This document shows positions 36,801 through 38,597 of a stretch of DNA of 64,000 bases, in pieces. The position numbers and the translations under genes are program-made. Each line of letters opens with the position of its first letter. Position 1 is the stretch's first letter. The stretch covers positions 1 to 64,000 of the forward strand of contig NZ_KB905147.1 of assembly GCF_000378225.1 (NCBI RefSeq), given 5' to 3'. Below the pieces are notes generated by a model that saw only the letters and a list, made by a program, of their open reading frames with translations, did no database searches and had not been told where the DNA came from. This stretch comes from Methylophilus methylotrophus DSM 46235 = ATCC 53528. GTDB lineage: Bacteria; Pseudomonadota; Gammaproteobacteria; Burkholderiales; Methylophilaceae.

Positions 36801-36911
36801 CCATTATCCATCGCCGTCATCGGCGGCATGATCTCGTCGACCTTATTGACACTGGTGGTGGTGCCGGCTTTTTACTCACTGGTCTTTTCCAGAAAAGCAG
36901 CTGCCACTTAA
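33831..36911 (+). CDS. RND efflux transporter permease (AcrB/MexF type)
   Basis: A proton-driven resistance-nodulation-division pump of the hydrophobic/amphiphilic exporter class. The 1026-residue protein is full length, with 12 membrane helices and two large periplasmic loops. Visible signatures are the N-terminal LPELSVKRHVLAWMLSGVMV, the helix 4 proton-relay motif LLLLIGVVVDDAIVMRESIL (paired Asp), FMDGVIGKFFKAFGLVMTVG and helix 10-11 LVLLIGLVAKNSILLIDLTN. It is translationally coupled to the adaptor gene. No outer-membrane factor gene follows, so the pump likely borrows a TolC-type channel encoded elsewhere. Substrates are unknown. Confidence 0.93.
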   Translation: MTLPELSVKRHVLAWMLSGVMVLFGLIAYQRIALDRFPAIEFPVISITTTLKGANPDVVDTSITSILESAVNTMPGLEHVQSASSPGVSVITLTFKLEKNIDQAYTEVQSKVNQAVRRLPQETDPPVLRKAETNDSPIYWLALHGDRTVQQLNLYALNVLKKKLETIDGVGEVLLGGRRDRTIRVEFNTERMAAYGLTVNDLLQAFSREHVQVPGGFLVQAQSEKMLKLDMEFHRVNELESLIVANRKGALIKLRDVAAIKDDLSDFRQIARYNGKPAVGLGMIKVPNANTVEIVHEIERRLAADIRPNLPPGMYLSESYNEAPFIEKMVAALKEHLLEGTLLAALIVFLFMRSVSSTLMICLEIPVSLLGAIAAMYFAGYSFNSMTLLALLLLIGVVVDDAIVMRESILRHLEQIREQGSLHLQQFIELRNRATLEGSREVTFAVIAASFSLVCIFAPVIFMDGVIGKFFKAFGLVMTVGVLASLFVSLTLTPMLSARYLKSENHRGRFYDALDKVFSTMDRQYRSLITWSLHHRWKVMLVTAVTVLSSVYFIQAVDKEFAPEADESRFTISFKTPLGSSLSYTLTRLDAIEQILAKHSEDIASYFSVIGSGQRGQVNEGRISIRMHDRQHRPHSQHFVVNALKKELASLPGVRAFPVPSSMIRGQRSEILQFLISGPNIQNVGLYAKQIQQQLTDIDGFGKIDMDLQLDLPQLEMHVDRDRAAQLGISANDIASAVNTYVGGMDIASYNDVDGDGQRYDIRLKANENDIRSPDHLQRIFLRSAQGQLVRLDTLAKFSAKLGPAVIGRYDLQYAANLYASPSMPLAEAISHVEKVTGAILPADYQFKLSGQAEEFSKTFKNVGFIFGLAMILLYMVLASQFNSFLQPVLVMVAQPLAMVGGLFALWLTGQTLNIYSMIGLVLLIGLVAKNSILLIDLTNQYREQGMSTNEALLAACPVRLRPVLMTSLTIILALLPAALGLSAGDETNKPLSIAVIGGMISSTLLTLVVVPAFYSLVFSRKAAAT

Positions 36912-37846
36912 ACATCTGCCTCAGTCACCTTTGATGGTGTGGTGGCATCCATACCCACCGCGACCACCCCCATCATCACCAGCACCGTTCCGGCACCTTG
37001 TATCCACGATAGCTGTTCACCTAAAAAGAGATAAGCAAGTAAGATCGTTGATACAGGACCAATCGCGCTGATGAGGGATGCCTTGCGGCTACCCAGTTGA
37101 TGTATCCCAACATTCATTAATATCGCCGGCAAGACAGTCGCCACAATCGCCATCAGCATGGCCAATGCATACACCTGATGAGGCAAAGCCATGATTTCTT
37201 TGGTAGAACCACTGATTCCGAACTGGCATGCACTCGCAAAGGCAGCTATGCCCATCGTCAAAGCCGTAAAGCGGGTGGCTCCCAGCTTTGGGATGAACTG
37301 CCCACAACCCAGCAGATATCCCGCATACACCACCGCACTTAACAACACCAGCCACGCCCCATACATCGTCTCGCTGGAATGCAGGCCGGACAGCTCAATG
37401 TCATGCCAGACCACCAACACCACGCCTGCATAGCTCACCGTCATGGCAAACCATTCGCGGCGGGTGATATGATGCTTTAGAAAGATCGCACTCATGACGA
37501 CAACCAGGGTGGGGTAAAGAAATAAAATGACTCTCTCCAGCCCTGCCGACACAAAACGCAATCCTTCAAAATTGAGCCACATAGACCCATAGCCACCAAT
37601 CACGGCCAATATCACCAGCCATGACCAGTCCTTGATGGTTAACGTCGCAGGGGATCCCTGGCGTGCTGCCCACCAACCTAAAGCCACAAAAAACGGCAGC
37701 GCAAACGCCATACGTAATGCAATCAAATTCCCCGCGTCCACGTGATAAACGTAAGCGAGTTTCACCATAATTGCCTTGGACGAAAAAACAATGGATGACA
37801 ACAGCACCAGCGTGGCACCGTAATACGGGTGGGTAGAGTCTTTCAT
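36908..37846 (-). CDS. EamA/DMT-family transporter with attenuator-like leader
   Basis: A 312-residue inner-membrane transporter of the drug/metabolite superfamily, about ten helices, two EamA repeats (LSSIVFSSKAIMVKLAYVYH and VVYAGYLLGCGQFIPKLGAT). The family includes the E. coli cysteine/O-acetylserine exporter EamA, but substrate cannot be assigned by sequence alone. Its upstream region holds a Cys-rich leader ORF and alternative hairpins, described separately, pointing to control by cysteine or its charged tRNA. It converges with the RND pump gene, overlapping by 4 bp. The start ATG is 37844-37846 with AGGG five bases upstream. Confidence 0.87.
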   Translation of the reverse strand: MKDSTHPYYGATLVLLSSIVFSSKAIMVKLAYVYHVDAGNLIALRMAFALPFFVALGWWAARQGSPATLTIKDWSWLVILAVIGGYGSMWLNFEGLRFVSAGLERVILFLYPTLVVVMSAIFLKHHITRREWFAMTVSYAGVVLVVWHDIELSGLHSSETMYGAWLVLLSAVVYAGYLLGCGQFIPKLGATRFTALTMGIAAFASACQFGISGSTKEIMALPHQVYALAMLMAIVATVLPAILMNVGIHQLGSRKASLISAIGPVSTILLAYLFLGEQLSWIQGAGTVLVMMGVVAVGMDATTPSKVTEADV

Positions 37847-37848
37847 AT

Positions 37849-37943
37849 GAGCCCTGAATCAGTGGGGCTCGCCGGGAAGGGACAACAGATCAACCGCGGA
37901 GAGCCCGCGGTTGCAAAAGATTTACGACAAGCAGCAACCGCGG
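37849..37943 (-). promoter_or_regulatory. Attenuator-like alternative RNA structures
   Basis: Reading the minus strand, three mutually complementary segments occur: A, CCGCGGTTGC (37943-37934, inside the Cys codons of the leader ORF); B, GCAACCGCGG (37914-37905); C, CCGCGGTTG (37899-37891). A pairs perfectly with B (10 bp), or B pairs with C (9 bp, 5-base loop). A further stem GAGCCC (37870-37865) / GGGCTC (37854-37849) would cover the AGGG ribosome binding site of the EamA gene. A second GGGCTC in the B-C loop (37906-37901) could compete for that GAGCCC. There is no U run after B:C, so control of translation start is more likely than termination. Confidence 0.55.
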
Positions 37944-37984
37944 CAAGTGGTGGCGACCAGCCACAATGCCTTTCGGTTCATCAT
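37922..37984 (-). CDS. Cysteine-rich leader peptide (20 codons)
   Basis: Reads ATG ATG AAC CGA ... TGC CGC GGT TGC TGC TTG TCG TAA, giving MMNRKALWLVATTCRGCCLS with three cysteines just before the stop. The Cys codons lie on one strand of a hairpin that competes with a second hairpin further down, as in amino-acid attenuators. A promoter candidate is TTGACC (38050-38055), 17 bp, TACATT (38027-38032), the -35 overlapping the end of the GNAT gene. No good ribosome binding site is seen before the ATG pair, which weakens the case. It is too short for standard gene finders. Confidence 0.55.
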   Translation of the reverse strand: MMNRKALWLVATTCRGCCLS

Positions 37985-38051
37985 CACAACAGTAGGTTGA
38001 TTGAATTGCTTGTGCATAAGCGTTCGAATGTACGCGGGTTTTGCAGAATGG

Positions 38052-38597
38052 TCAAGTTGCAAAATGCGAGGATAAGCTTTTTTGCAATGTGATGAGTTGC
38101 ATATTTTCTACTTGCGGCTGCCACATGTCAGGCTGGTGCGGAAAAGGCAGTGTCTCCCCCGTAGGCTGGTAGCCTAACCGCCTATAAAATGCGATTAACT
38201 CCTCGCGTAAACTGATCACCATCATTTGCGCTCTTTGCATACCCCATTGAGATACCGCCAGTTTTTCGGCGGCGAGTATCATGGCCTTGCCGTAACCGCG
38301 GTTCTGCAACAGCGGTGAAACGGCAATCATGCCTAATTTGACGGTGCCAGTCTCCTCAGGATGCTGCTCAAGACAAAGACTGGCAGCCATCACGCCACTT
38401 GCATCTTCCCCAATCAAAATACACGCATCTTCACGTGCCAATAAAGCTTGTATCGTCCGTTCACTGGTTCGCACGCCGGTCAACAAATCAGCTTCCGTGG
38501 TCCATCCAGCGCGACTGGTCTCTCCCCTGTAAGCCGCATTTACCAGGGCACATAACACGGGGACATCTGATTCTTGGGCAAGACGTTGTATCAGCAT
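38052..38597 (-). CDS. GNAT-family N-acetyltransferase
   Basis: A roughly 180-residue acetyltransferase of the GCN5-related family; substrate unknown. It shows the N-terminal RLAQESDVPVLCALVNAAYR, motif B/A strand SLCLEQHPEETGTVKLGMIA and the acetyl-CoA-binding VSPLLQNRGYGKAMILAAEK (R/Q-x-x-G-x-G/A), then LREELIAFYRRLGYQPTGE. The ATG at 38595-38597 is used; a GTG three codons earlier is possible. It follows the symporter gene by about 11 bp and may be co-transcribed with it. Confidence 0.87.
   Translation of the reverse strand: MLIQRLAQESDVPVLCALVNAAYRGETSRAGWTTEADLLTGVRTSERTIQALLAREDACILIGEDASGVMAASLCLEQHPEETGTVKLGMIAVSPLLQNRGYGKAMILAAEKLAVSQWGMQRAQMMVISLREELIAFYRRLGYQPTGETLPFPHQPDMWQPQVENMQLITLQKSLSSHFAT

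Follow-up and report, generated by a model that had tools for sequence, protein, structure and literature searches.

A candidate Leu-Trp leader with a Shine-Dalgarno mimic ahead of EamA/DMT-family transporter genes: comparative evidence for a putative translational attenuator in betaproteobacteria

In the E. coli trp attenuator, a leader peptide with Trp codons is combined with mutually exclusive RNA pairings, and mycobacteria possess leaderless Cys-rich uORFs that lack a 5' UTR. The B. subtilis gene ycbK encodes what we take to be a DMT/EamA protein. Described as an uncharacterised putative efflux gene, it answers tryptophan at the level of translation, the TRAP protein binding over its Shine-Dalgarno sequence, and no ribosome-sensing leader is mentioned for it in the available parts of PMC13170310 and PMC3971595; ycbK under TRAP thus sets an example of how a comparable gene can come under Trp control. 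The RNA of S. meliloti trpLE(G) begins at the ATG of trpL and again joins a Trp-codon leader peptide to mutually exclusive pairings (PMC7298713, available part), the output of trpL attenuators being transcription termination before trp biosynthesis genes. In toiL of E. coli topAI-yjhQ, stalling on a uORF refolds the RNA and opens a downstream ribosome site that is hidden at rest; according to the accessible text of PMC12121999, toiL responds to a wide range of antibiotics, and its pairing extends over the full length of the uORF. The BmrB leader of bmrCD in Bacillus also uses a leader peptide and alternative stem-loops to control a transporter, here of the ABC type and by transcription attenuation that answers antibiotics (PMC4191407, available part).

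Here we describe a leader preceding an EamA/DMT-family transporter gene. Among the literature found, and as far as its text was accessible, toiL offers the nearest mechanism in print and trpL the nearest anatomy. With toiL it would share the uORF, the hidden downstream ribosome site and stall-driven refolding, but it differs in that its Leu-Trp site is fixed, that four segments follow one another and are joined by a Shine-Dalgarno mimic, and that the target is a DMT transporter gene. With trpL it shares the Trp-codon peptide and the exclusive pairings, and the near-leaderless start predicted for its uORF resembles that of S. meliloti; in contrast to trpL, the ribosome site of a transporter gene would be the output, there is usually one Trp codon, and the window has no U run. 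The mycobacterial uORFs resemble it in the start without, or almost without, a 5' UTR and in the Cys codons, the latter being dispensable in the present leader. No relay by a Shine-Dalgarno mimic was found for toiL or trpL in the available parts of PMC12121999 and PMC7298713. Among the literature matches listed, from which subscription papers were largely absent, we found no description of the leader and no paper combining leader-peptide attenuation with EamA; neither EamA nor DUF6 is mentioned in the accessible text of PMC2965389. Rfam gave no match at gathering score in the window or in 14 loci. The strongest sub-threshold Rfam match within the leader, P37 (18.2 bits versus 50), was rejected, as the hairpins agree but the sequence hardly does.

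The window, a stretch of 64,000 nucleotides from Methylophilus methylotrophus, encodes the transporter on the minus strand (36908..37846; 312 aa; PF00892, E = 1.1e-33). Downstream, an AcrB-family RND transporter gene (PF00873, 33831-36911) is convergent on it, the 3' ends overlapping by 4 nt. Upstream on the minus strand, the last base of a GNAT gene is 38052, and the first of the EamA gene is 37846. The sequence from GNAT stop to EamA ATG (38051..37847, minus) confirms the 205-nt spacer before the EamA gene given in an initial annotation of this DNA. The best promoter score (9/12) belongs to a -35 box TTGACC (38050..38055, minus), overlapping the end of the GNAT gene, and a -10 box TACATT (38027..38032, minus) separated from it by 17 nt; in relatives the -10 box reads TAAATT, TATAGT or TAAAGT. 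The box ends 9 nt before a uORF ATG at 38017. This distance is 6-10 nt in all 50 leaders compared, all of which reach a promoter score of at least 9/12, as against 1.9% of shuffled upstream regions. The uORF is predicted to be near-leaderless, its 5' UTR measuring about 0-4 nt. This would explain the lack of a strong ribosome binding site, listed as a weak point in the initial annotation.

The uORF itself (37922..38017, minus strand; 31 codons, MHKQFNQPTVVMMNRKALWLVATTCRGCCLS, stop TAA included) ends in LWLVATTCRGCCLS; it is a candidate predicted from the sequence, and its translation is presumed. It places a short uORF between promoter boxes and regulated gene, as in attenuators. The 20-codon ORF noted initially does exist (ATG at 37984, stop ending at 37922), but it lies inside the longer frame: its ATG is internal, and the better start, 33 nt upstream at 38017, is the only ATG in the relatives L014-L016, which have 29-aa leaders.

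Four pairing segments and a pair of competing strands follow, all on the minus strand. Segment 1, TTGTGGC (37960..37966; mostly CTGTGGC outside the window's family), contains a near-invariant control codon, the Trp codon TGG (37961..37963), and is predicted to pair with segment 2 when the window sequence is folded. Segment 2 (GCCGCGGTTGC, 37934..37944) lies in the uORF and can partner segment 1 or 3; segment 3 (GCAACCGCGG, 37905..37914) can partner segment 2 or 4, and segment 4 (CCGCGGTTG, 37891..37899) is a partner of segment 3. A Shine-Dalgarno mimic GGGCTC, termed E' (37901..37906), shares bases with both the end of segment 3 and the loop of 3:4. The anti-Shine-Dalgarno strand D, GAGCCC (37865..37870), can pair with E' or with E, the GGGCTC adjoining the ATG of the gene (37849..37854), which goes together with a Shine-Dalgarno-like AGGG (37855..37852). 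Segments 2, 3 and 4 correspond to A, B and C of the initial annotation, whose pairings (A:B, 10 bp; B:C, 9 bp with a 5-nt loop), GAGCCC/GGGCTC stem at the gene start and second GGGCTC are exact in the sequence. Its anatomy thus holds for A, B, C and both GGGCTC copies, but it had overlooked segment 1, the start at 38017 and the codon for Trp.

The partner strands and D read GGGCTC/GAGCCC in the window and GGGTCT/AGACCC in many relatives; elsewhere the match is GGAT/ATCC (L097 and L102) or GGACTTTA/TAAGGTCC (L079). When the uORF is folded from the Leu-Trp codons to the stop, the CUG-UGG-C region pairs with segment 2 in the window. This 1:2 hairpin is also seen by eye in most leaders outside the family (18/20), but in most family leaders the predicted partner of segment 1 is instead GCCAC, immediately before segment 2. 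The anatomy is close to the classical series 1:2, 2:3, 3:4 with control codons in segment 1; the output of the switch differs from that series, consisting in the pairing of D against E at the ribosome site. An intrinsic terminator with a U run, typical of trp leaders, is absent from the window, where no U run follows segment 4, in agreement with the initial annotation. T runs of at least four occur in 5/50 leaders, three of them with a doubtful segment 4. In L082 and L083 such a run follows segment 4, and the 3:4 hairpin may also be an intrinsic terminator there.

We propose, at a confidence just short of evenly balanced, that the leader is a ribosome-mediated, trp-type attenuator acting on translation initiation, with a shortage of charged tRNA-Trp as its probable signal. 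The near-leaderless uORF would be translated as soon as the mRNA is made. A ribosome running to the stop codon would cover segment 2, whereupon 3:4 could form and bury the mimic E'; D would then pair with the true Shine-Dalgarno strand E and the transporter would be OFF. It would be OFF as well if no ribosome is present: 3:4 and D:E would be formed, and segment 1 would be tied up in a hairpin whose other arm is segment 2 or the sequence next to it. Stalling of the ribosome on the Leu-Trp codons would leave segment 2 free to take segment 3; once 2:3 has formed, D would move to E' and the transporter start site would become free (ON). Scarce charged tRNA-Trp would be the most likely cause of such a stall, and the transporter would be a Trp-starvation-induced DMT carrier that imports or scavenges Trp or a precursor. 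If Trp shortage is indeed the signal, an exporter makes little sense, hence the prediction of an importer or scavenger; to our knowledge, such a role is not established for this transporter family. We infer the sign of the response (stall = ON), the Trp-tRNA signal and the substrate. Most leaders have a single Trp codon, a low number for attenuation by an amino acid.

The search for the transporter covered 150 genomes from the family of the window. Upstream DNA of an orthologue was read in 41 family genomes (30 loci and 12 fetched upstream regions, one genome occurring twice), and the leader is present in 32 of them. These 32 keep the short ORF and do not break both the A:B and the B:C pairing, the loss of which the initial annotation had named as evidence against its proposal. 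Two of them deviate, the distal ATG being out of frame in L005 and an ATG missing from the leaderless position in L041. In L005 (G139) the transporter also has an in-frame stop besides the out-of-frame leaderless ATG, possibly a decaying locus or assembly errors. No such uORF was seen in the other nine family genomes read (L013, L021, L023, L031, L033, L036, L038, L039 and L040). A much diverged leader with other segment sequences, in some cases with a longer 3:4 loop holding E', occurs in L026, L027, L028, L030, L035 and L037; none of these genomes is listed by a covariance model of the leader (R1), which matched 28/187 family genomes.

R1 also matched one genome of another family of the order (L079), before an EamA gene. 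With the L079 protein as query, 142 of 300 genomes of the order gave a match; of 29 order loci read, 19 have the leader, two of which were already known from the family, and 60 further upstream regions, a part of the rest, added L113, L116 and, in odd form, L115. Other families of the order carry it as well. A second model (R2) runs from segment 3 to the ATG of the gene, contains no uORF sequence and was built from 26 leaders. In the order it matched 32/399 genomes (20/158 genera). Of the 31 matches inspected (all but G315), 29 represent the leader, which in 21 of these genomes had already been recorded; the other two, L197 and L198, do not. Among 274 genomes of the class, R2 found one further leader, L200, in a different order, and three non-leaders besides the window's own match; 200 genomes of the phylum gave three non-leaders besides that match. 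The R2 matches rejected as leaders (L197, L198 and L201-L206) all lack an EamA match. Altogether nine leaders were found without use of the uORF, all from R2 and all with an EamA gene downstream (9/9); L115/L196 came from a signature scan as well. The first signature detector recovered 17/50 known leaders and 13 others, with 7/132 shuffled upstream regions positive, and among the 13 others L115 proved real. In L115/L196 (G343) CTGTGG does not share the frame of the likely uORF, and the only Trp lies several codons earlier; the leader may have decayed, or the assembly, which is fragmented, may contain a sequencing frameshift.

A scan with a DNA pattern that fixes no reading frame returned 101 stretches, 80 of them readable as loci. 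EamA lies directly downstream in 49/80 (52-69% identity to the L079 protein), and 47 of these 49 have a -10-like box at leaderless distance by a loose test. Among the 80 loci no other target gene was seen: the 31 without EamA look like chance, except for L247 and L278, where the leader is present close to the point at which the available sequence ends. The records matched by the pattern include Gallionella, Sideroxydans, Sulfuricella, Thiobacillus and Ferrovum, which we take to be betaproteobacteria (GTDB order Burkholderiales); a few EamA-linked ones are labelled Methylococcaceae, Rhizobium or Gammaproteobacteria, all of them MAGs and assigned by label only. Within the genome of the window we found no second copy, R2 listing one match there; matches to segment 3 with two mismatches are scattered (23, versus 8 for a reversed control pattern). 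In L086 and L105 the EamA gene has no leader. Judged by eye, the gene directly before it has a C-terminus similar to that of cysteine synthase CysM in L086 and of 2-isopropylmalate synthase LeuA in L105.

Which codons might be sensed is indicated by the leader peptides. Of 53 distinct aligned leaders, 50 have Trp at position 0 and 14 have it at +2; the three that lack it at position 0 were placed by hand so that a later LW falls at +2. Leu precedes at -1 in 49, and Arg occupies -2 in 30 and is absent in 23. All 88 distinct leader peptides contain Trp, partly by selection because many were picked by the motif LW or the pattern CGACTGTGG; a conserved Trp control codon in segment 1, as in trp-type leaders, is thus present, with the same proviso for its count. 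In the nine leaders found without the uORF, Trp occurs in 9/9 and at the segment-1 site in 8/9, the exception being L196, where it lies elsewhere. The pattern CGACTGTGG is read as Arg-Leu-Trp in an ATG-started uORF in 49/49 EamA-linked pattern loci. Family leaders change their Arg-Lys-Ala-Leu codons synonymously around a constant TGG, and these changes beside the Trp codon suggest a constraint on the peptide. As judged from these sequences, the conserved control site is Leu-Trp in segment 1, not Cys. At least two Trp codons occur in 16/88 distinct peptides; the window, with one, lacks the several Trp codons of known trpL leaders.

The fold of the window sequence alone is unremarkable (z = -2.0; 6/200 shuffles as good), so the case rests on conservation, and in comparison among relatives the leader parts are conserved far more than by chance. 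On the R2 alignment, 3:4 and D:E together have 83.5% of cells paired and 11/17 pairs changed on both sides; none of 500 shuffles was as good, and slid controls were 35-42% paired. Taken separately, the 3:4 helix is 86.9% paired with both-side changes in 6/10 pairs, and D:E 78.4% with such changes in 5/7. For D:E' the values are 89.9% and 4/8; 8/500 shuffles reach that number of double changes, but 0/500 reach the covariation score, and a control slid by -3 also has four double-change pairs but is 37% paired. Since D:E and D:E' both covary, one strand, D, is matched to two others, which supports the initial proposal of two GGGCTC copies competing for GAGCCC. In a first family alignment D:E was only 69% paired, strand E being misaligned there; by eye, the aligned D:E helix is interrupted in L081, L092, L095 and L096.

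Because MAFFT put segment 2 three columns off between clades, 2:3 was tested by permutation instead, with segment 2 chosen by consensus motif and not by pairing; L003, a near copy, was dropped, and segment 3 of L088 is off by one. Over 31 leaders 247/310 positions are paired, more than in any of 5000 permutations, the signal residing in six core positions (the outer four are not significant, 519/5000). For 1:2 there is no covariation in the same number of leaders (200/217 pairs possible; 459/5000 permutations as good), as segments 1 and 2 vary too little for it to appear. All these shuffle and permutation statistics ignore relatedness. Mutually exclusive pairings with covariation are therefore found for 2:3, 3:4, D:E and D:E'; the check that had been suggested, covariation of the pairings in relatives, came out positive for A:B and B:C as well as for both D helices.

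The switch was followed by equilibrium folding of the RNA free of the ribosome footprint, i.e. from 13 nt beyond the first base of the P-site codon, and read out as expected D:E versus D:E' pairs in 50 leaders, segments 3 and 4 being placed automatically and wrongly in at least L026, L027, L032, L037, L091, L097, L098 and L102. Mean Shine-Dalgarno accessibility under ribosome masks did not separate the states at equilibrium, and masking segment 3 was uninformative, since the duplex ran into E'. For the window, the prediction is 6.0 D:E and 0.0 D:E' pairs without a ribosome and 6.3 and 0.0 with a ribosome at the stop, so that the downstream ribosome site is predicted to be sequestered at rest, as in translational attenuators. 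A stall at the Trp codon raises D:E' from 0.0 to 5.6 and lowers D:E from 6.3 to 2.4. In all 50 leaders a ribosome at the stop leaves more D:E than D:E' pairs, although D:E is under one pair in L026, L027, L028, L037, L091 and L098, at least partly from misplaced segments. The Trp-codon stall raises D:E' by more than one expected pair in 16/50 leaders and lowers it that much in none; 15 of the 30 family leaders but only one of the 20 outside (L093) belong to the 16. The switch is thereby predicted for the window and about half of the family leaders. In the remaining 34/50 the equilibrium fold is unswitched on stalling, and kinetic folding must be assumed for them.

Scanning the stall along the window uORF gave a mixed state 8 codons before Trp, the earliest position shown, ON from 7 codons before Trp to 4 after, and OFF from 5 codons after Trp to the stop, all three Cys codons included. 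With an ON zone of about a dozen codons, the fold does not single out Trp. The scan covered 21/50 leaders, chosen to include switching ones; 13 have at least three expected D:E' pairs at the Trp codon, L113 shows only a trace of a switch, and L014, L025, L029, L079, L081, L083 and L088 essentially none at the positions shown. For the scanned leaders that do not switch, folding would have to proceed during transcription, with 2:3 forming while segment 4 is still to be made. With the stall imposed and segment 4 blocked, D:E' exceeds D:E in only 8/50 leaders, which speaks against a simple model.

Several other explanations have to be weighed against an attenuator that reads Trp-tRNA. According to the initial annotation, cysteine is the signal: a stall at the Cys codons of segment A would control a cysteine/O-acetylserine exporter, the function of E. 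coli EamA. Three Cys codons do lie near the end of the window leader and at least one is found in 60/88 distinct leader peptides, but 28/88 have none, and in the window a ribosome on any of the three is predicted to produce the same OFF fold as one at the stop; L093 is an exception among the scanned leaders, its Cys standing four codons after Trp in the ON zone. Moreover, the Cys codons of the window are located within segment A or next to it, so that the need for A to pair is enough to keep them in place, and the one just past A is replaced by Tyr or Phe in relatives; conserved Cys codons placed to switch the RNA are thus lacking. With Cys dispensable, its codons in or beside a pairing segment and a stall on them in the window indistinguishable from finishing, the cysteine reading fails. 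An equivalog of E. coli EamA is likewise missing from the NCBIfam matches, a library which may hold no such model. We consider cysteine control very improbable, and what stands of the initial proposal is a leader-peptide attenuator with mutually exclusive helices that would act on the ribosome site of the EamA gene. A TnaC-like arrest leader, in which Leu-Trp in the exit tunnel lets a small molecule stall the ribosome near the stop, seems improbable, too. The 8 to 16 residues after the first Trp in the 50 leaders are close to the spacing in TnaC, and the synonymous changes around Trp suggest selection on the peptide; against this, the distance from Trp to the end varies, the residues after Trp are little conserved, and an end-stalled ribosome would mask segment 2 of the window, the OFF state in our model. 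To a structured but unregulated leader that sets only a low basal translation rate we likewise give little chance: D:E prevails over D:E' at the stop in 50/50 leaders (six with D:E under one pair), as such a leader would have it, but it leaves unexplained why the alternatives 2:3 and D:E' covary beyond permutation and shuffle controls and why the Trp codon is in frame in 49/49 EamA-linked pattern loci.

The main rival, possible but in our estimate unlikely, is that the same switch senses a slowing of ribosomes in general, caused by antibiotics or translation stress, with the Leu-Trp region as the stall place and the EamA protein exporting a drug or toxic metabolite. The predicted ON zone of the window, at least a dozen codons around Trp, would suit it; according to the available parts of the papers, toiL answers at least five classes of ribosome-targeting antibiotics (PMC12121999), and BmrB does likewise for a multidrug transporter by transcriptional attenuation (PMC4191407). 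What it leaves unexplained is Trp fixed at one place (50/53) and frequent two codons on (14/53). In ErmDL, ribosomes stall less with telithromycin once Trp replaces the final Arg of Arg-Leu-Arg (PMC8298421, accessible text), and RLW is therefore unlikely to be a ketolide arrest motif; Arg at -2 is, besides, absent in 23/53 leaders. Erythromycin is less strict than the ketolide on the arrest motif. The idea of RLW as a macrolide arrest motif finds no support in the available text of PMC8298421.

The transporter itself gives few hints. Besides PF00892 there is a sub-threshold match to a sugar-transporter profile; no NCBIfam family scores above cut-off, the best being TIGR00950 (65 bits versus a cut-off of 230), weak YddG-like matches stay far below theirs, and no PDB relative was found by sequence. 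The DMT carrier YddG exports aromatic amino acids (PMC13170310, available part), which counts against the starvation-induced reading, since such a gene would not need export. Ten neighbouring proteins from six loci (PEBP, DsbB, ABC permease, P-type ATPase, LuxR-type regulator, glyoxalase, TPR, XhoI-like, globin and YebC) show no pattern and no hint of Trp. In L175/L217 (G480) the EamA gene matches the query in two pieces and is possibly frameshifted or interrupted.

Going beyond the trp-type attenuator proposed above, we tentatively suggest, rating it as somewhat doubtful, that the leaders form an undescribed, widespread class of translational attenuators, present in betaproteobacteria and in one or more lineages of a different order, in which a Leu-Trp uORF reads Trp-tRNA charging and a four-segment switch with a Shine-Dalgarno mimic serves a dedicated DMT importer induced by Trp starvation. 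A plausible reading of a single genome, that of cysteine, was overturned here by comparison. If our proposal is true, attenuation of the trp kind would have been moved from a terminator to a ribosome site, with the Shine-Dalgarno mimic as relay and the near-leaderless uORF as sensor. An orphan EamA/DMT family of methylotrophs, iron oxidisers and sulfur oxidisers would be tied to a definite signal, and the substrate of an uncharacterised carrier would become directly testable.
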